From a virus, in IMG/VR virus record IMGVR_UViG_3300023184_000414, positions 1 through 28,554 of that record: 28,554 nucleotides of DNA; one strand, 5' to 3'. A program made the position numbers and the translations under genes. Positions 3,235-21,381 of this stretch are shown piece by piece (the first letter of the stretch is position 1; each line of letters opens with the position of its first letter). The notes beneath the pieces were generated by a model. It saw nothing but the letters and a program-made list of their open reading frames with translations. It was not told the DNA's origin and did not search any database.

Positions 3235-3315
3235 AGTATATATCACTTTTAGTATATTAGCAAATAAAATAAATATTTTGAATAATTTTTGTAGGGATGG
3301 TAAATACCATCCCTA
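3235..3315 (-). promoter_or_regulatory. Palindrome-promoter cassette 4
   Basis: Palindrome 3292-3315 (loop AAAT), -35 TTGCTA at 3258-3263, -10 TATACT at 3235-3240, 17-base spacer. Confidence 0.8.
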
Positions 3316-3327
3316 TTTTATTAAAGC

Positions 3328-3353
3328 AAAAAAAAGAGGGGTTTTCACCCCTC
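3328..3353 (-). terminator. Intrinsic terminator
   Basis: GAGGGGT-GAAA-ACCCCTC followed by eight Ts on the minus strand; the stem includes the stop codon of the gene ending at 3345. Confidence 0.85.
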
Positions 3354-4016: not shown

Positions 4017-4096
4017 ATTATATCATCTAGTGTATACAGTGCAAGATTAAAAAAATATTTGATTAAAATATTTAGGGATGGTGTTTACCATCCCTA
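4017..4096 (-). promoter_or_regulatory. Palindrome-promoter cassette 5
   Basis: Palindrome 4073-4096 (loop GTTT), -35 TTGCAC at 4039-4044, -10 TATAAT at 4017-4022. The TAG at the edge of the palindrome is the stop codon of the gene ending at 4094, and no other terminator is present. Confidence 0.85.
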
Positions 4097-4366
4097 AAGG
4101 TACTCGTAAGAAAAATTTCCTTCATAAAATGTTTTGAACTTATCGTATACATGATCTCCTAAGCTTTGAGGTATTCTGATAAAGTGTGTTTCAGAAAACA
4201 GCTCCAGGAGTGCATAATACTTTTCTCCATCTGTCCAAAGAATACATTCAGTTCCTTCTTTGTATGTTATTTTAAAACCAATACGATTTATGTATTTTGG
4301 TTTTAAAATAACATTACTCGGAAATTCAGCATTCTCAGTTAAAGACAGAAGAAACTTATCGTACAT
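4094..4366 (-). CDS. Hypothetical protein
   Basis: 90 residues (MYDKFLLSLTENAEF), mixed alpha/beta, with no motif I recognise. Its start overlaps the end of the TPR-like gene by 11 bases and its TAG stop is part of palindrome 4073-4096. Last gene of a four-gene overlapping unit starting at 5628. Confidence 0.75.
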   Translation of the reverse strand: MYDKFLLSLTENAEFPSNVILKPKYINRIGFKITYKEGTECILWTDGEKYYALLELFSETHFIRIPQSLGDHVYDKFKTFYEGNFSYEYL

Positions 4367-8592: not shown

Positions 8593-8677
8593 AGGAGAGA
8601 ACAGGATTCGAACCTGCGAACGCTTTCACGTTAACTGTTTTCAAGACAGTCGCTATCGACCACTCAGCCACCTCTCC
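8593..8677 (-). tRNA. tRNA-Ser(UGA)
   Basis: Cloverleaf on the minus strand: acceptor GGAGAGG, anticodon stem ACTGT / ACAGT with loop CTTGAAA (anticodon TGA), a long class II variable arm and TTCGAAT T-loop. No CCA is encoded; a T-run follows. It lies between two protein genes in the unit started by the promoter at 8909-8937. Confidence 0.93.
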
Positions 8678-9016: not shown

Positions 9017-9089
9017 TGGGCAGTACAGGACTTGAACCTGTAACCAACAAATTATGAGTTTGCTGCTCTAACCATTGAGCTAACTGCCC
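9017..9089 (-). tRNA. tRNA-Met(CAU), or Ile2 after modification
   Basis: Canonical cloverleaf: acceptor GGGCAGT / ACTGCCC, D-arm TAGCTCAATGGTTAGAGC, anticodon loop CTCATAA (CAT), T-loop TTCAAGT, discriminator A. Elongator methionine versus lysidine-modified isoleucine cannot be decided by eye. No CCA encoded. Confidence 0.92.
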
Positions 9090-9665: not shown

Positions 9666-9763
9666 ATTATACCCAATGCGTGGTAGATTGCAAGTCACAT
9701 AAGAAAAATGTTAAGAAATCTTTTTTTGATAGAATTTTTTAGGAATGGTATTTACCATTCCTA
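9666..9763 (-). promoter_or_regulatory. Palindrome-promoter cassette 9 (small RNA)
   Basis: Palindrome 9740-9763 (arms TAGGAATGGT, loop ATTT), -35 TTGCAA at 9688-9693, -10 TATAAT at 9666-9671, 16-base spacer. The only cassette with no protein gene behind it. Confidence 0.8.
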
Positions 9764-9775
9764 TATTTTTAATGC

Positions 9776-9811
9776 AAAAAAATCCCTCTTCCTATGAGCT
9801 AGAAGAGGGAT
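9776..9811 (-). terminator. Intrinsic terminator
   Basis: ATCCCTCTT / AAGAGGGAT stem with TTTTTTT on the minus strand, after the gene ending at 9841. Confidence 0.8.
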
Positions 9812-10407: not shown

Positions 10408-11037
10408 CTAATCATCAAAAAATTGTTTTATTTGTTGATTAGCGATAGTCCAAAAATTTTTGTTTTGATGGATAATTTCTGACAATTGCTTTCTTCCTAA
10501 GAACACCAGTTTATCTTTAAAATTCACATCAATAATGAATGAATACGTGCTTGCTGTAGTAAATAGAAATACAGTGTGTGGTTTGTCCAAATCACAAGCA
10601 TGATTTTCTCTACCATCAAAATATGTTTTGGTCAAATCCTCATATTTTATTTGGTCATCACCAGTAGGATTTGGATTTGCTCTATATTTACATTGAACAG
10701 CAGACTTGTGACCATTGACATTAATACCTGTTGCATCTACACCATAGTCTGATGCACAATCTGCAATAGTATATTGATGTAGTCCAAACCTGTCATCAAA
10801 AACAGAATTAGTGAAGAATATTTCTGCTAAGATTTCAAGCATATCTCCTCGGAAATCATTCATGGTTTTTTCTTTATCAATCTGAGAAGATTTTTTGCTA
10901 CCAAGTTGATTTGCGTGATTTTCTACTAAAGATATCCAGATATCCAATGTTTTCATGGATTGTTCTGCTGTATCTAAAGTTTCGTATATGTCTTTAACTT
11001 GTTTGTGATAGACAGAAATACTACTATGTTCAAGCAT
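10408..11037 (-). CDS. Mrr-like PD-(D/E)XK nuclease
   Basis: 209 residues from the ATG at 11037, which has GGAG seven bases upstream and overlaps the helicase stop by eight bases (ATGCTTGA); an earlier in-frame start at 11085 would be deeper in the helicase gene. The nuclease core shows an early acidic helix (GDMLEILAE, Glu68/Glu72), GVDATG (Asp101) and AVQCKYR (Gln115, Lys117), the E...D...QxK pattern of Mrr-type restriction endonucleases. The N-terminal 60 residues are helical. Tight coupling to a DEAH helicase implies a joint complex that moves on and cuts DNA; target and trigger are unknown. Confidence 0.8.
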   Translation of the reverse strand: MLEHSSISVYHKQVKDIYETLDTAEQSMKTLDIWISLVENHANQLGSKKSSQIDKEKTMNDFRGDMLEILAEIFFTNSVFDDRFGLHQYTIADCASDYGVDATGINVNGHKSAVQCKYRANPNPTGDDQIKYEDLTKTYFDGRENHACDLDKPHTVFLFTTASTYSFIIDVNFKDKLVFLGRKQLSEIIHQNKNFWTIANQQIKQFFDD

Positions 11038-12775
11038 CGTATGTCTCCAAAATACTAATCGCCAGTTTCTCTTGTTCCTCTTCACTCATATCTGATGTTT
11101 TGAGATTAATCATTTCAGAGAATGAGAAGATGTGAGCCAATTGACCTTCTTTGAATTTTGCTTCGATTTCATCATCGGTATTAATGGATGGCATAACATA
11201 TTCTGGGTTTGCCATGAACTGTTCTTTTTCAGTAAATCTTTCTGCTCTGACACCATAGTTATCATAAACTTCGTCAATCAAAGTTTGTATTCTGTTAGCA
11301 TCATCCAAAAGATAGTTAGGTATCAAGACCCAAGCCCAAGGTTTTACGAATTTCTTGTATTCAGTTGGATATATTTTATCTTTATGTCCATCAGGTAAAT
11401 ACAATCTTCTTCGGTCTTCTGCAAGTAATCTAGTAGCTCGACCCAAGGTTTGTGTTAACTTCGATTTTGTCATGTCTCTGATAGGCATGACACCAGTAAT
11501 TGCAGGTAAGTCTATACCTTCCGCTAAGATATCAACATGAAGGAATATTGCATCATCACTATCACTTAACTCATTCATTTTGTCAATGATAGTATTTCTG
11601 CTATTTATTCTTTCAAAATTACAAAAGTCTCCATATTCAGAATTGACACTGAACATATGAACATTATTTTGTTCACACCATGTCCTAAATGCAATGTCAT
11701 TTACTACATCGTTTAATTGAACACTACCATCGCAAGTTACTAGTAATTTTGCACCTAGTGATTTTGGTTTACTTGAATGTTCCTTCACCTTAACTCTGTG
11801 ATTAATAAATCCCTCAGTTATGGCTCTAACAGTCATAAGGGGATTGTCATAACTATATCCCTCATCGTTTTGCACTTGGATGACATGATAGTTATTTGGT
11901 CTTACAATCTCTCCTTTTTCAACCATTTCTCTAGGAGATTTTTCAAAGAGCAATTCACCATAAAAATCAACTCTATTCATCCCACGTTTGCAATCACTCT
12001 CTTTACGTGTTGCAGTGAAGAAAAACTGTTTTTGAATTCTAGGTTTTACTTTGTCTACATTTGACCAGTAGTCATCTCTTGTTATAGTGTGTGCTTCATC
12101 GTAGGTACATACATCAATAACTGGTATCTTATTCAATCTGTCAAATGAATCATAAGTAGCAATGATTACACAATGCTTTTTATTTGATTTAGATTCATTT
12201 ACGAAATTTACTATCTCATCTGAATTGGTAGTATTCTTAACTTCAATATCATCAATAGATAATCTATCTGATACATCGTTTTGCTTCAGATGTTTGTTTC
12301 GTTTCTTGATTGATTTGTGTATCTTTTTCATGCTGTAGTTATCAGAACTAACAGAAAGAAAATCACATTCAATATTGTTCTCAAAACGTGCCATGTAGAC
12401 AAAATCATTGAATAACTGATTACACAATGCTAGTCTATGTGCAGTAATGACATATACACCACTTTGATTATTTTTGTTTTTTTCCACCATGTCTTGAAGA
12501 TGGATATGCAACTGGATTAAAGTTTTACCAGTACCAGTGGGAATTGAAACCTGACCTATAGATTCGTTTTTTATTCTTGATAATGCATCAATTTGATGAG
12601 GACGTAGATTCTTTCCATCATTGTCCAAGAATTCAATACTCTCGGTAATTTTTGGTTCGAATTTTTCTGTGGTAATCTGTATAGGTTGCTCTATCTTAAT
12701 TGTCTCTTTATTGTTAGGCAACATCTTACGCAAAGCACTTGCTATTTCTTTTCGGATTTCATCAATTGACTTCAT
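11030..12775 (-). CDS. Superfamily 2 DEAH helicase/translocase, restriction type
   Basis: 581 residues. A Q-like LRPHQ (57-61), Walker A IPTGTGKT (78-85), DEAH (226-229), a TAT motif (FFTATR), and a RecA2 domain ending in QTLGRATRLL (442-451) define an SF2 translocase of the type III restriction / UvrB-like group. EGIDLPAITG precedes motif VI. The start at 12775 (MKSIDEIRKEI) is five bases from the -10 box, so the mRNA is probably leaderless; earlier starts fall inside the promoter. It forms an operon with the nuclease and lies behind a separate unit with the two methyltransferase-like genes. Confidence 0.88.
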   Translation of the reverse strand: MKSIDEIRKEIASALRKMLPNNKETIKIEQPIQITTEKFEPKITESIEFLDNDGKNLRPHQIDALSRIKNESIGQVSIPTGTGKTLIQLHIHLQDMVEKNKNNQSGVYVITAHRLALCNQLFNDFVYMARFENNIECDFLSVSSDNYSMKKIHKSIKKRNKHLKQNDVSDRLSIDDIEVKNTTNSDEIVNFVNESKSNKKHCVIIATYDSFDRLNKIPVIDVCTYDEAHTITRDDYWSNVDKVKPRIQKQFFFTATRKESDCKRGMNRVDFYGELLFEKSPREMVEKGEIVRPNNYHVIQVQNDEGYSYDNPLMTVRAITEGFINHRVKVKEHSSKPKSLGAKLLVTCDGSVQLNDVVNDIAFRTWCEQNNVHMFSVNSEYGDFCNFERINSRNTIIDKMNELSDSDDAIFLHVDILAEGIDLPAITGVMPIRDMTKSKLTQTLGRATRLLAEDRRRLYLPDGHKDKIYPTEYKKFVKPWAWVLIPNYLLDDANRIQTLIDEVYDNYGVRAERFTEKEQFMANPEYVMPSINTDDEIEAKFKEGQLAHIFSFSEMINLKTSDMSEEEQEKLAISILETYDA

Positions 12776-12780
12776 ACCGT

Positions 12781-12857
12781 ATTTTATCATAATTTGTATA
12801 TACTGCAACAAATAAAAATTTGAATAAATTTTTTAGGGATGGTATCTACCATCCCTA
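12781..12857 (-). promoter_or_regulatory. Palindrome-promoter cassette 11
   Basis: Palindrome 12834-12857 (loop ATCT), -35 TTGCAG at 12803-12808, -10 TAAAAT at 12781-12786, 16-base spacer. Separates helicase-nuclease from the methyltransferase pair. Confidence 0.8.
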
Positions 12858-12887
12858 AAACAAATCCCCCATAAAATTATGGGGGAT
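12858..12887 (-). terminator. Hairpin terminator
   Basis: ATCCCCCATAA / TTATGGGGGAT with a 2-base loop, followed by TTTGTTTTA on the minus strand. Confidence 0.75.
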
Positions 12888-12891
12888 AAGC

Positions 12892-14133
12892 TCACTTTCT
12901 AATTCCATAATAATCAGGAAGAAATTCTCTGATGTAATCTTGGAGTTCTTGAGATACGTCAAATTTCTCAAATAACTTTTCATCATCCCATTCTTCTTTA
13001 AAATCAAGCCAAGGTATAAGACCAAGTTCACCGCCGACTAAACTTACACCATTTTTATAGATTGAAAGACAAAATCTTGCAAAATCTGTTTTGAGATATT
13101 CTATAAAGTTATATTGTTCTTGTTCACTATCAAAAGCGAATGTTGGAGGATTTTGATTTGTTTTTCTTATACCTTTATTATCATTAGAAGATTTCATAAC
13201 CATTGTGTAAAAATCATCTTGTGCGATTTTTGAAGAATCTGATTTTGCAGACAAATTGACATGACCACGAATCCTTGCCATTTGTACAAAAAATTTATCT
13301 GCTGGTGGATTCTCAGCATCAATCTTAACATCATTAATACTTTGATATGTCTTGATAGATTCAAAAAATGGTTTCACTAAAGTTATCCATTTCTCACCAT
13401 ATTTACTGATATCAAAAATATCACTTAAATTATAATTTTCATTAAAAAATGAAATATCAATGTTGCCACTATGTTTGGAATTTATGTGCGTAATCACTGT
13501 AGGAACATATAAACCAATATTGAATACAGGATTACCATTAAACATTTCTACTGATTTCAAAGAATCTTTAATTTGATTTCTGAAGTCTACAGTGAACTTT
13601 GTTCCATACTTGCAGTCAATTAACCAAGTAGAAGGGTGTATTGCAATTATTTCTTCTGAAATACCAACAAGTTCACTTAATATTTTTATGTCTACATTGT
13701 TAGTGTATGGTGGATTACTAAAAACCAAATCAAATTTCATATCAATGCCTGTTATCATTTTCTTCAATGCTGGAACAGAAAACTCATCTAAATTATATGA
13801 TTGTACTTTGAAAATCTTAACAGCACAAAGTTGTTCAATTTTGTTGTCTGAAATAAAAACAACATCTGACGAATTAACTTTTTGTTCATCTACTAAAATA
13901 TGAAGAAATTCTATATTAAATAAAACTAATATTTTCTTATTTTGTAAAGATGTTTTACTGACCATCTTACGAATAAGTGAATAAGGTGTTGGATTCTCCT
14001 GCCAATGATTTCCTAGTTTCGATACCCAATTGAAAAATGAAGCACGTTCATCAGAATCATTTAACTTATAACTCATTTGCTTTAAAAAGTTATCATCAGC
14101 AAGGGTTTTGTTTTTTAATTCATAGAGATTCAT
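12892..14133 (-). CDS. Adenine-N6 methyltransferase-like protein B (keeps NPPY)
   Basis: 413 residues from the ATG at 14133; GGAAGAG lies upstream and the start overlaps the stop of protein A by 14 bases. It has NPTPYSLIRKMV (47-58, motif X-like), a degenerate motif I (KKILVLFNIEF, 66-76, lacking the GxG loop), an acidic motif II region (SDN, 95-97) and a clear catalytic NPPY at 140-143. The C-terminus (YLKTDFARFCLS, IPWLDF, DEKLFEKF) resembles the target-recognition and tail region of type II/IIG adenine methyltransferases. It probably needs protein A, or an unusual AdoMet site, for activity; this is inference. Confidence 0.8.
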   Translation of the reverse strand: MNLYELKNKTLADDNFLKQMSYKLNDSDERASFFNWVSKLGNHWQENPTPYSLIRKMVSKTSLQNKKILVLFNIEFLHILVDEQKVNSSDVVFISDNKIEQLCAVKIFKVQSYNLDEFSVPALKKMITGIDMKFDLVFSNPPYTNNVDIKILSELVGISEEIIAIHPSTWLIDCKYGTKFTVDFRNQIKDSLKSVEMFNGNPVFNIGLYVPTVITHINSKHSGNIDISFFNENYNLSDIFDISKYGEKWITLVKPFFESIKTYQSINDVKIDAENPPADKFFVQMARIRGHVNLSAKSDSSKIAQDDFYTMVMKSSNDNKGIRKTNQNPPTFAFDSEQEQYNFIEYLKTDFARFCLSIYKNGVSLVGGELGLIPWLDFKEEWDDEKLFEKFDVSQELQDYIREFLPDYYGIRK

Positions 14134-14725
14134 TGATAAACTCTTCCATGTCTGAAACAAACTGCATTTCCGCTTTTTGGGAATATTTCTCTAGTGTATC
14201 ACCAAATATCTCAATTACTCTGTCTGTGCAATTAATCCAACCATTTTTGTAAATGTAAATGCCAGAACAATTATCAGGTAAAGATTTCAAATGTTTACTA
14301 TCACCAATAAACAAATTGATATACTGTGAATAAATGTGCATCAACTTATAGCATGATGATAATTGTAGTTCAGAAAAATAATGTGTTTCATAGAGAAACT
14401 TTTTGTATTGGAAATCATTGCCAAGTAATGAGATTTTTTTACGAAGCATTCTGATAGTAAATTGACCATAACCAGCACAAAGGTCTAATGTGATTTTGTT
14501 CTGGTTTTTCCAATCATAATCACTTACTCTTTGTAACATCTCATCTACTAACCAAATCGGAGTAAAAACCTCACCAAACGTATCAGATTTTTCCTTGTTG
14601 GTTGCTACTTGTAAATGGTATTCTTTTGGCATAGGCATGATAGAAAAATCACCTTTTAATTTGGCTACATTTTTGAATCTTCTTTCAATACACTTAACTA
14701 TATGTGTTGAATCATAAACTATCAT
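14120..14725 (-). CDS. Methyltransferase-like protein A (keeps AdoMet loop, lacks NPPY)
   Basis: 201 residues from the ATG at 14725, with AGGA six bases upstream; an upstream start at 14764 lies in the promoter. GEVFTP (51-56, motif X as in N6-adenine methyltransferases of the type I/Eco57I group) is followed by LDLCAGYGQFT (80-90), an intact motif I, and a GDS (141-143) fitting motif III. Where NPPY is expected (about 155-165) the sequence is GIYIYKNGWIN. So it can plausibly bind AdoMet but lacks the usual catalytic tetrad. It is translationally coupled to protein B. Confidence 0.8.
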   Translation of the reverse strand: MIVYDSTHIVKCIERRFKNVAKLKGDFSIMPMPKEYHLQVATNKEKSDTFGEVFTPIWLVDEMLQRVSDYDWKNQNKITLDLCAGYGQFTIRMLRKKISLLGNDFQYKKFLYETHYFSELQLSSCYKLMHIYSQYINLFIGDSKHLKSLPDNCSGIYIYKNGWINCTDRVIEIFGDTLEKYSQKAEMQFVSDMEEFINESL

Positions 14726-14854: not shown

Positions 14855-14888
14855 TTTCACTTGGAGAAAAGAAAAAATCCAAGTGAAA
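14855..14888 (-). other. Hairpin immediately 3' of tRNA-Lys
   Basis: TTTCACTTGGA / TCCAAGTGAAA, 11-bp stem with a T-rich loop, starting one base after the tRNA; probably a 3' processing or stability element. Confidence 0.6.
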
Positions 14889-14960
14889 TGGGTTGAGTGG
14901 GATTTGAACCCACGACCAATGCCTTAAAAGGGCACTGCTCTTCCACTGAGCTACCAACCC
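14889..14960 (-). tRNA. tRNA-Lys(UUU)
   Basis: Canonical cloverleaf: acceptor GGGTTGG / TCAACCC, D-arm TAGCTCAGTGGAAGAGC, anticodon stem GTGCC / GGCAT with loop CTTTTAA, T-loop TTCAAAT, discriminator A. AAA/AAG codons are heavily used in this genome, so it would aid translation. No CCA encoded. Confidence 0.93.
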
Positions 14961-15049
14961 AAACTAAAGGAAGAGGTTATGTTCTGCCCGTCTTCGTGAC
15001 TAGTTAACGAGTGTCGATTTGAACAAAACTTACAATGATATGGCTTCAT
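14951..15049 (-). CDS. Possible 32-residue zinc-finger-like microprotein
   Basis: A frame between tRNA-Leu and tRNA-Lys reads MKPYHCKFCSNRHSLTSHEDG..., with CxxC and two following His (a C2H2-like pattern); its TAG stop lies inside the tRNA-Lys gene. There is no good ribosome site, so it may be chance. The region also has AGAGGTTA / TAACCTCT at its ends, which could pair to loop out the spacer. Confidence 0.3.
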   Translation of the reverse strand: MKPYHCKFCSNRHSLTSHEDGQNITSSFSLGW

Positions 15050-15090: not shown

Positions 15091-15171
15091 TCCCCCAGAC
15101 GAGACTCGAACTCGTACTCTTTGCAGAAAAGGATTTTAAGTCCTTCGTGTCTACCATTCCACCACCGGGGG
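15091..15171 (-). tRNA. tRNA-Leu(UAA)
   Basis: Class II cloverleaf: acceptor CCCCCGG / CTGGGGG, D-arm with GGTAGACA, anticodon stem AAGGA / TCCTT with loop CTTAAAA (TAA), a long variable arm, T-loop TTCGAGT, discriminator A. It reads the AT-rich UUA codon. No CCA encoded. First RNA of the unit started at 15182-15209. Confidence 0.93.
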
Positions 15172-19694: not shown

Positions 19695-19783
19695 ATATTA
19701 TCATCTGTACATACCCTATGCAACATATATTTCAAAAGAAAAATTTTGACAAATTTTTGTAGGTATGGTGAACACCATACCTA
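19695..19783 (-). promoter_or_regulatory. Palindrome-promoter cassette 15 (rIIA)
   Basis: Palindrome 19760-19783 (arms TAGGTATGGT, loop GAAC), -35 TTGCAT at 19718-19723, -10 TAATAT at 19695-19700, 17-base spacer. Confidence 0.8.
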
Positions 19784-19833
19784 AAGGATCTTTGCTAATT
19801 ATTTTTTTAGAAGCTTATAACAGCACTTAAGCA

Positions 19834-19888: not shown

Positions 19889-19913
19889 TTATGTTGCCTA
19901 AACGGCAACATAA
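19889..19913 (-). other. Hairpin enclosing the stop codon of the DUF932-like gene
   Basis: 10-bp stem TTATGTTGCC / GGCAACATAA with the TAG stop at the loop. No U-run follows. It could affect mRNA stability. Confidence 0.55.
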
Positions 19914-21220
19914 GCGTATTGATTGATTGTTTTCTCTTTCTCTAACTTTGCACGTTCGGAAATCATTCCCCAACGCTTGGAAATTGCTTGCAAATCACTA
20001 TCAATGGATGGTGCAAGGATAAAACTTGCTTGGGTTTCCATTTGTTCGCGCATACTACCCTTATAATCTTGTGATGCACGGGTAAGACCGTTCACAATAC
20101 CAAAAGCAGTGTTTTCGTGAACATGACCGTTTGCTTCATGCAAACTATCCAAGTATCCCTTGTGCCAGAGTTTACCTTGTTCAATGGTCATTTTCTGGTC
20201 ACGGGCAAGTAGTGCAATAGTTGCAAGTGGGTTTTCAACCTTGACCTGCTTGGATAAGGACATGAGAGTGAGAAGGTCATTACCTTGCGTCAAAGCACTC
20301 TTAACAGCATTGGTGACCTGTTCTTGTAATTCTTTAAGGTCAATCTTACCCATGTGTCGTTGGTTGACATTGATTTCATCTTTAGCATCTTGTCTACCCC
20401 AAATCATTCCATTAAGACAAATGGCACGGAAGAGGAATGGAGAAATCTTGAAAGTGGAATTGCGAATTTCAGAATTTCTGAATGCAATACCCACACCGTA
20501 GTCACTATCTGGTTCACTCTTCATGTAGTCTGGCAAAAGAACATTACCATAGATATCATCACCATCGTTGAAGATGTGTGAAGCAAGTGCATCCTTCAAT
20601 GATGGTAGAGCATTGACTACCATGTCCATGGCTTCAGAATTATCAATCACACCATATCGTTCAGATACGATGGCACGAATGACATCGTTGCCTTCATCAT
20701 CATGTCGAACACGTACACGGAAATCCCGTGGTTCTTTGCCAGAGTGGTTCCAAGTGGTTTCCCGTCTGTCCAATTCTTTGTTGAGAAACTTTACCAGTTC
20801 TTCATCATATTCACGCTCTTGAAGGAACGAAACCATGGATGAAGGAACGTCTGTAAAACCACGAAGAGAGTTAAGACCAGACTTGGTTAATGGTGTGCCA
20901 TCAAGCAGAGTGTTAGCATCAAGCAAGCGGATTTCAGATTCCTTCTTGACGATGTCTTCCTTGTGCTTGGATTGTTCCTTGACTGTAGAAACAAAGTCTG
21001 CGAATGGGGTACATTTGTCTTGCCAAACTTTGGCAACATGACGATGTGATGCAGAGGATTGAAGACCGATAGCATTGAACCAATTGCCATTGGCATCTTG
21101 CTTTGCTGTTGAACCTTCCTTGACTTGGAGGGATGAGACATTGGTGAAGACAGACTTGTTTGGTTCTGCTTTGATTGGTGCATCGTCCAGTTCAAGGAAC
21201 GATTTAGGTGTATCCGACAT
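19898..21220 (-). CDS. DUF932 / phage-plasmid-like protein (TIGR03299-like)
   Basis: 440 residues. Segments such as VIRAIVSERYGVIDNSEAM, GIAFRNSEIRNS and the FKISPFLFRAICLNGMIW region match, from memory, the DUF932 (TIGR03299) proteins found in many plasmids and large phages; their function is not established. The first 60 residues are acidic and low-complexity. AAGGA lies eleven bases before the ATG within an AAGGAAGCCAAT leader that belongs to the GAAGCCAA set. Good codon bias and a cassette promoter suggest high early expression. Confidence 0.8.
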   Translation of the reverse strand: MSDTPKSFLELDDAPIKAEPNKSVFTNVSSLQVKEGSTAKQDANGNWFNAIGLQSSASHRHVAKVWQDKCTPFADFVSTVKEQSKHKEDIVKKESEIRLLDANTLLDGTPLTKSGLNSLRGFTDVPSSMVSFLQEREYDEELVKFLNKELDRRETTWNHSGKEPRDFRVRVRHDDEGNDVIRAIVSERYGVIDNSEAMDMVVNALPSLKDALASHIFNDGDDIYGNVLLPDYMKSEPDSDYGVGIAFRNSEIRNSTFKISPFLFRAICLNGMIWGRQDAKDEINVNQRHMGKIDLKELQEQVTNAVKSALTQGNDLLTLMSLSKQVKVENPLATIALLARDQKMTIEQGKLWHKGYLDSLHEANGHVHENTAFGIVNGLTRASQDYKGSMREQMETQASFILAPSIDSDLQAISKRWGMISERAKLEKEKTINQYAYVAV

Positions 21221-21258: not shown

Positions 21259-21357
21259 ATATTACCATGTGTGTATATCATATGCCACACTATTTAAAAA
21301 AATAAGCTAGAGAAAAAATTTGACAAAAATTTTTAGGGATGGTAAATACCATCCCTA
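21259..21357 (-). promoter_or_regulatory. Palindrome-promoter cassette 16
   Basis: Palindrome 21334-21357 (loop AAAT), weaker -35 TGGCAT at 21282-21287, -10 TAATAT at 21259-21264, 17-base spacer. It is the only hairpin after the gene ending at 21382. Confidence 0.75.
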
Positions 21358-21381
21358 AGTTTAAGATGTAAATTAAAAAAA

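Follow-up and report, generated by a model that had tools for sequence, protein, structure and literature searches.

The window analyzed here, the 28,554-nt IMG/VR virus record IMGVR_UViG_3300023184_000414, contains an island of four genes encoding two methyltransferase-like proteins (A and B), a helicase, and a nuclease. We propose that these proteins probably constitute a phage-carried, four-subunit, ATP-dependent restriction-modification (R-M) system that resembles a disassembled Type ISP enzyme. Computational comparison identified the four parts and the linkage among them, as well as the split in the methyltransferase and the relation to Type ISP enzymes. The original prediction, made from this DNA alone, had described a coupled methyltransferase pair next to a coupled DEAH helicase and Mrr-like nuclease, together the parts list of an R-M system. 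The open reading frames (ORFs) lie where it placed them, all on the minus strand and in two overlapping pairs (A with B by 14 nt, helicase with nuclease by 8 nt), and the parts list is borne out by the family matches and shared linkage described below.

The four families are linked in phages other than the one represented by the window. In the cyanophage S-CAM7, nuclease (gp054), B (gp055), helicase (gp056), and A (gp057) are encoded consecutively and match the window proteins by BLASTP (5e-7, 1e-30, 1e-41, and 6e-9, respectively). The set also occurs in the Synechococcus phages ACG-2014f (order A, nuclease, B, helicase) and Bellamy (helicase, B, nuclease, A), and in about 10 further kinds of IMG/VR contig, some of which were found when IMG/VR was scanned with a helicase alignment and all six-frame ORFs were then searched with profiles. 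Counted by kind and including the window, 14 loci encode the complete set in separate genes, arranged in six orders. The order in the window, A-B-helicase-nuclease, is repeated in loci L018, L103, and L105, the last two of which came from a separate scan with A alone; overall, the set was recovered from independent seeds (helicase, A, and nuclease). Whether the four genes travel together in relatives had been chosen beforehand as one of the observations on which the prediction would stand or fall, and they do. Because the four families recur together in unrelated phages, chance is excluded as an explanation, and the preservation of linkage across six gene orders is strong evidence of shared function. 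When the window helicase or window B was used as a single query, scanning IMG/VR returned no close relatives, and alignments were needed, although that of B was too divergent to serve as a scan query. Likewise, tblastn with the window nuclease alone matched no phage record, whereas S-CAM7 gp054 as the query does match phage records. No plasmid record matched the helicase at 1e-8.

Searches of whole records showed that a methyltransferase without the nuclease is common, but the nuclease without a methyltransferase is rare. The nuclease was present in 9 of 20 records, and 8 of those 9 had a B-type match, the exception (L028) being a 36-kb fragment. Conversely, A/B are present and the nuclease is absent from the whole record in Aeh1, Ah1, Lak-B1, ZPAH1, and PKO111. 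R-M systems and orphan methyltransferases show the same asymmetry.

A and B have complementary motifs. GxG is present and NPP[YFW] is absent in every one of the 23 split A sequences, whereas NPP[YF] is found in all 24 B sequences and GxG is absent from motif I in each of the 18 B proteins that have an N-terminal half; the sole GxG among B proteins, in S-CAM7 (LIGMGHEP), lies downstream of motif I. The split lies between motifs III and IV. Both halves, with both motifs, are joined in one chain in L022, L023, and L029. A second cut, located precisely at the junction of the degenerate and NPPY halves, divides B in L018 and L103; a sequencing error in L018 is disfavored as the cause, since the second contig has the same split. 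In Aeh1-type phages, B lacks the degenerate half and A is fused behind it, and in these fusions, as in L018, L103, and L100, the NPPY half exists without an N-terminal half in the same chain. A and B are most likely complementary halves of a single N6-adenine methyltransferase. The predicted pair of coupled methyltransferase-like genes therefore stands, but not as two enzymes: we rejected two independent methyltransferases because the loss of motifs is complementary between A and B.

A matches phage methyltransferase families, and its profile matches CamA, BseCI, and the methyltransferase parts of LlaGI and LlaBIII; B matches phrog_11371 (3.7e-48). The predicted fold of window B is that of a methyltransferase (predicted local distance difference test [pLDDT] score, 85.6) and resembles BpuSI, M.TaqI, and HsdM/Type I M subunits. 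A model of the Aeh1-type fused B-A protein, of moderate quality, aligns over both halves to class-beta methyltransferases, among them MboIIA and TTHA0409 (Z of ~10.5). These predictions support an arrangement in which A would donate the S-adenosylmethionine (SAM)-binding half to B. Natural two-piece methyltransferases are known among C5 enzymes, namely M.AquI, which is cut within the variable region, and M.EcoHK31I, in which only motif IX is apart (PMC3404938). As in these enzymes, two polypeptides would make up one DNA methyltransferase; however, theirs is C5-cytosine specific, whereas the one considered here is of the N6-adenine type and appears to be cut between its SAM-binding and catalytic halves.

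Additional A- and B-like sequences were seen in several records. In S-CAM7, a short B-like fragment is followed by another A protein (L009:16644-17755), and in Lak-B1, a further C-terminal fragment resembling B lies between the B and A genes, on the opposite strand (L012:9008-9691). In L106, a 416-kb contig, A and B are ~1 kb apart, and the nuclease was not found in the whole record.

The helicase carries Walker A (PTGTGKT), DEAH, and motif VI and matches Pfam ResIII (1.7e-12) and phrog_16 (1.6e-28), in agreement with its original identification as a DEAH helicase. When the family profile was compared with the PDB, the best matches were LlaGI (1.9e-25) and LlaBIII (4.6e-25), followed by XPB (8e-15) and T4 UvsW (9e-11). 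Among 64 helicases placed in one tree, 22 belong to the systems and 42 are solitary, and a branch with 100/100 support separates the two groups, with the caveats that the system and solitary labels were set by gene neighborhood and that some branches are long. The solitary helicases (61 loci in the six-frame profile search) lack such partner genes. We rejected a UvsW-type recombination pair because UvsW ranks far behind in the profile comparison and the solitary clade is separate in the tree; the helicase is thus distinct from the ordinary UvsW-type helicase of the phage.

Alignment of the nuclease with 19 relatives revealed an invariant G-D-x-x-E-x-x-x-E ... G-x-D ... Q-x-K pattern of the PD-(D/E)XK type, and 3 of the 20 sequences match Mrr_cat or Mrr_cat_2, which upholds the Mrr-like assignment. 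The window nuclease alone has no Pfam match; it matches phrog_7683, a family of unannotated function (2.7e-7), and its family profile retrieved no related solved structure. In L021 (6308-10453), nuclease, helicase, and methyltransferase are encoded in one chain in the Type ISP order, up to the contig end, which cuts the chain. Motif I of this chain (DPAC / GDGNF) is interrupted by an intein-like insert, which has a weak LAGLIDADG match. In L019 and L020, no PD-(D/E)XK gene lies beside A and B, and the helicase instead ends in an HNH domain; in L019, a search of the whole record found no PD-(D/E)XK nuclease, and the HNH end matches a PADLOC Type IV model (2.4e-6).

Relatives of the set are also found in bacteria. 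Scanning bacterial genomes with A identified three-gene sets in L117, L118, L119, L121, and L122, each consisting of A, a B-type methyltransferase, and a large ResIII-helicase protein. Motif I of the bacterial B proteins is mostly DPC(A/T)KSG, with the first glycine lost, and B of L122 begins at NPPY. The N-terminus of the large helicase protein of L117 matches the GIY-YIG family T5orf172, and the same N-terminal sequence occurs in L118, L119, and L121. The L121 set directly follows the Wadjet genes JetC and JetD. No single PADLOC system name covers the bacterial three-gene set. Its GIY-YIG cutter and the position of L121 beside Wadjet favor a role in restriction or defense over one in replication. 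Judged by these sequences, the cutter is exchangeable, being PD-(D/E)XK in most sets, HNH in two, and GIY-YIG in the bacterial relatives. Just downstream of the L119 set is a reverse transcriptase (L119:11886-13457; RVT_1, 1.4e-13).

Among known systems, the closest parallels are the Type ISP enzymes LlaGI and LlaBIII (PMC4666363, PMC4872093), in which an Mrr nuclease, a superfamily 2 (SF2) motor, a coupler, a methyltransferase, and a recognition domain form a single chain (PMC4666363). The window set has in common with them an Mrr-family nuclease, an SF2 translocase, an N6-adenine-type methyltransferase, and a presumed specificity region, and the helicase and A profiles and the L021 chain described above provide further likenesses. 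It differs in being phage-carried and composed of four proteins, with a split methyltransferase and an exchangeable cutter. We did not file the window set as a Type ISP member because it lacks the single-chain feature: its ORFs are separate, and L021 is the sole one-chain relative. CglI also has nuclease and helicase as separate subunits, the nuclease with PLD and B3 domains and the helicase with a Z1 domain (PMC5737866). CglI and NgoAVII resemble the window set as R-M systems with a nuclease and an SF2 helicase-like ATPase on separate subunits; however, the window nuclease is PD-(D/E)XK, and a Pfam search of the window proteins gave no match to PLD, B3, or Z1. Type III systems (Mod and Res) likewise combine a ResIII-type helicase with an N6-adenine methyltransferase. 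The Res subunit carries its own nuclease, whereas the window helicase ORF has no nuclease domain and the Mrr-like nuclease is a separate ORF. Hachiman (HamA/HamB) is also a helicase-nuclease pair, but one without a methyltransferase; we rejected it because the nuclease has no PADLOC or HamA match, the HamB match is weak and partial (5e-5, ~120 residues), and methyltransferase genes are present. The MADS and BREX methyltransferases (MAD2, PglX/BrxX) show distant similarity (window A to mad2, 0.002), but none of their partner genes is among the four; window A was unmatched by the NCBIfam models, and the bacterial relatives fell far below the cutoffs. A PADLOC search of the window proteins gave weak matches only. 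Jumbo-phage R-M has been mentioned in general terms, as have circularly permuted adenine methylases of phages (PMC7824862), but we found no description of the four-part set in the open-access literature.

These comparisons led us to a mechanism in which we infer how the subunits assemble, methylate a specific site, cleave, and select their target. The SAM-binding protein A and the catalytic, target-recognizing protein B would join into an enzyme that methylates phage DNA on adenine in a site-specific manner. At an unmethylated site, a complex of A/B with the helicase and nuclease would set the SF2 motor going, and cleavage would be carried out by the PD-(D/E)XK nuclease. Virion DNA would arrive premethylated, and the unmodified host chromosome and superinfecting phages would be destroyed. 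The two functions originally offered for the island, a weapon against rivals and a device for host-chromosome degradation, are thus not really alternatives, because an R-M system in a phage with premethylated DNA would attack both.

Some observations weigh against this four-subunit R-M system. No coupler domain was identified in the window set, unlike in Type ISP enzymes. As a single sequence, the window helicase has no PDB match at 0.001, and its putative relation to Type ISP derives from the profile of its family and from the fusion in L021. We infer the binding of A to B; the fused B-A model has a pLDDT of 73 and a predicted template modeling score of 0.67, and B retains its degenerate N-terminal half next to A. 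Another explanation, which we consider unlikely, is that A is a separate regulator, or an RNA or protein methyltransferase-like domain, and that B alone is the methyltransferase, with unusual SAM binding. B is indeed predicted to be a whole methyltransferase fold by itself, and the bacterial B proteins keep the partial motif DPC(A/T)KSG, but the consistent loss of GxG at motif I of B and its retention in all split A proteins, the NPPY halves that have no N-terminal half in their chain, and the single-chain relatives with both motifs together argue for two halves of one enzyme.

It is quite unlikely that the island consists of two unrelated modules, with A and B shielding phage DNA from host restriction and the helicase and nuclease carrying out recombination or host DNA breakdown regardless of methylation. 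The nuclease-free phages listed above and the hairpins that separate the two gene pairs of the window would fit such an arrangement; however, it does not account for linkage kept through six orders, the one-chain relative L021, the distinct helicase clade, or the near-constant presence of a methyltransferase in records with the nuclease. We regard as very improbable a modification-dependent, Type IV-like helicase-nuclease directed against foreign methylated DNA. The Mrr family does include Type IV enzymes, and the HNH end in L019 matches a Type IV model, but such an enzyme would need to spare the phage's own methylation, Pfam recognized no methyl-binding domain, and it is Types I to III that are characterized by association with a complete methyltransferase.

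More tentatively, a four-subunit R-M system of this kind could belong to a widespread, undescribed ATP-dependent family with a split methyltransferase and an exchangeable cutter, with which lytic phages might destroy the DNA of hosts and rivals. In such a system, the stand-alone SAM-binding protein could be a switch: A would take the place of the degenerate half of B and so turn methylation on. Phages are already known for single methyltransferases, whereas this set would be a complete, conserved cut-and-mark machine that is present in named Synechococcus phage isolates. It would thereby become possible to test by what means such phages break down host DNA and whether restriction is used by one phage against another. 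The set would also provide a natural split N6-adenine methyltransferase, with SAM-binding and catalytic halves as separate genes, and a natural series of cutter swaps on one motor.

Table 1. Features of the window in and around the four-gene island (coordinates of the window)
Feature	Position	Strand	Description
Gene A	14725-14120 (ATG 14725, stop 14120)	-	Putative SAM-binding half of split N6-adenine methyltransferase; contains GEVFTP (motif X) and DLCAGYGQF (motif I), lacks NPPY
Gene B	14133-12892 (ATG 14133, stop 12892)	-	Putative catalytic half (NPPY) and C-terminal presumed target-recognition region; N-terminal half degenerate, without GxG
Helicase	12775-11030 (ATG 12775, stop 11030)	-	SF2 helicase/translocase, ResIII family, Type ISP-like
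Nuclease	11037-10408 (ATG 11037, stop 10408)	-	PD-(D/E)XK, Mrr-like
Two hairpins with T-rich tails	12831-12887	-	Terminator-like; between the A-B and helicase-nuclease pairs; downstream hairpin is a copy of the intergenic repeat
Hairpin repeat copies	267-341, 1064-1138, 1845-1919, 3260-3334, 4041-4115, 9708-9782, 12802-12876, 19728-19802, 21302-21376, others		Intergenic
Four tRNA genes	8593-8677, 9017-9089, 14888-14961, 15091-15171		Ser, Met, Lys, Leu
DUF932 protein	19898-21220		phrog_1362; adjoins rIIA

The number of terminator-like sites in the region (2, versus 1.6 expected from shuffled sequence) does not exceed chance, so the evidence for the hairpins between the two gene pairs is the repeat copy rather than the scan. 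No promoter-like sites in the region exceeded the shuffled expectation, and we claim no promoter. The hairpin repeat (TAGGGATGGT...ACCATCCCTA and variants) occurs with conserved flanks in at least 10 intergenic places of the window, and the letters of its stem covary (AGGCATGG/CCATGCCT, AGGTATGG/CCATACCT). These recurrent hairpins are probably terminator-promoter modules. The genes rIIA and rIIB neighbor the island, and two of the tRNA genes lie directly upstream of A.
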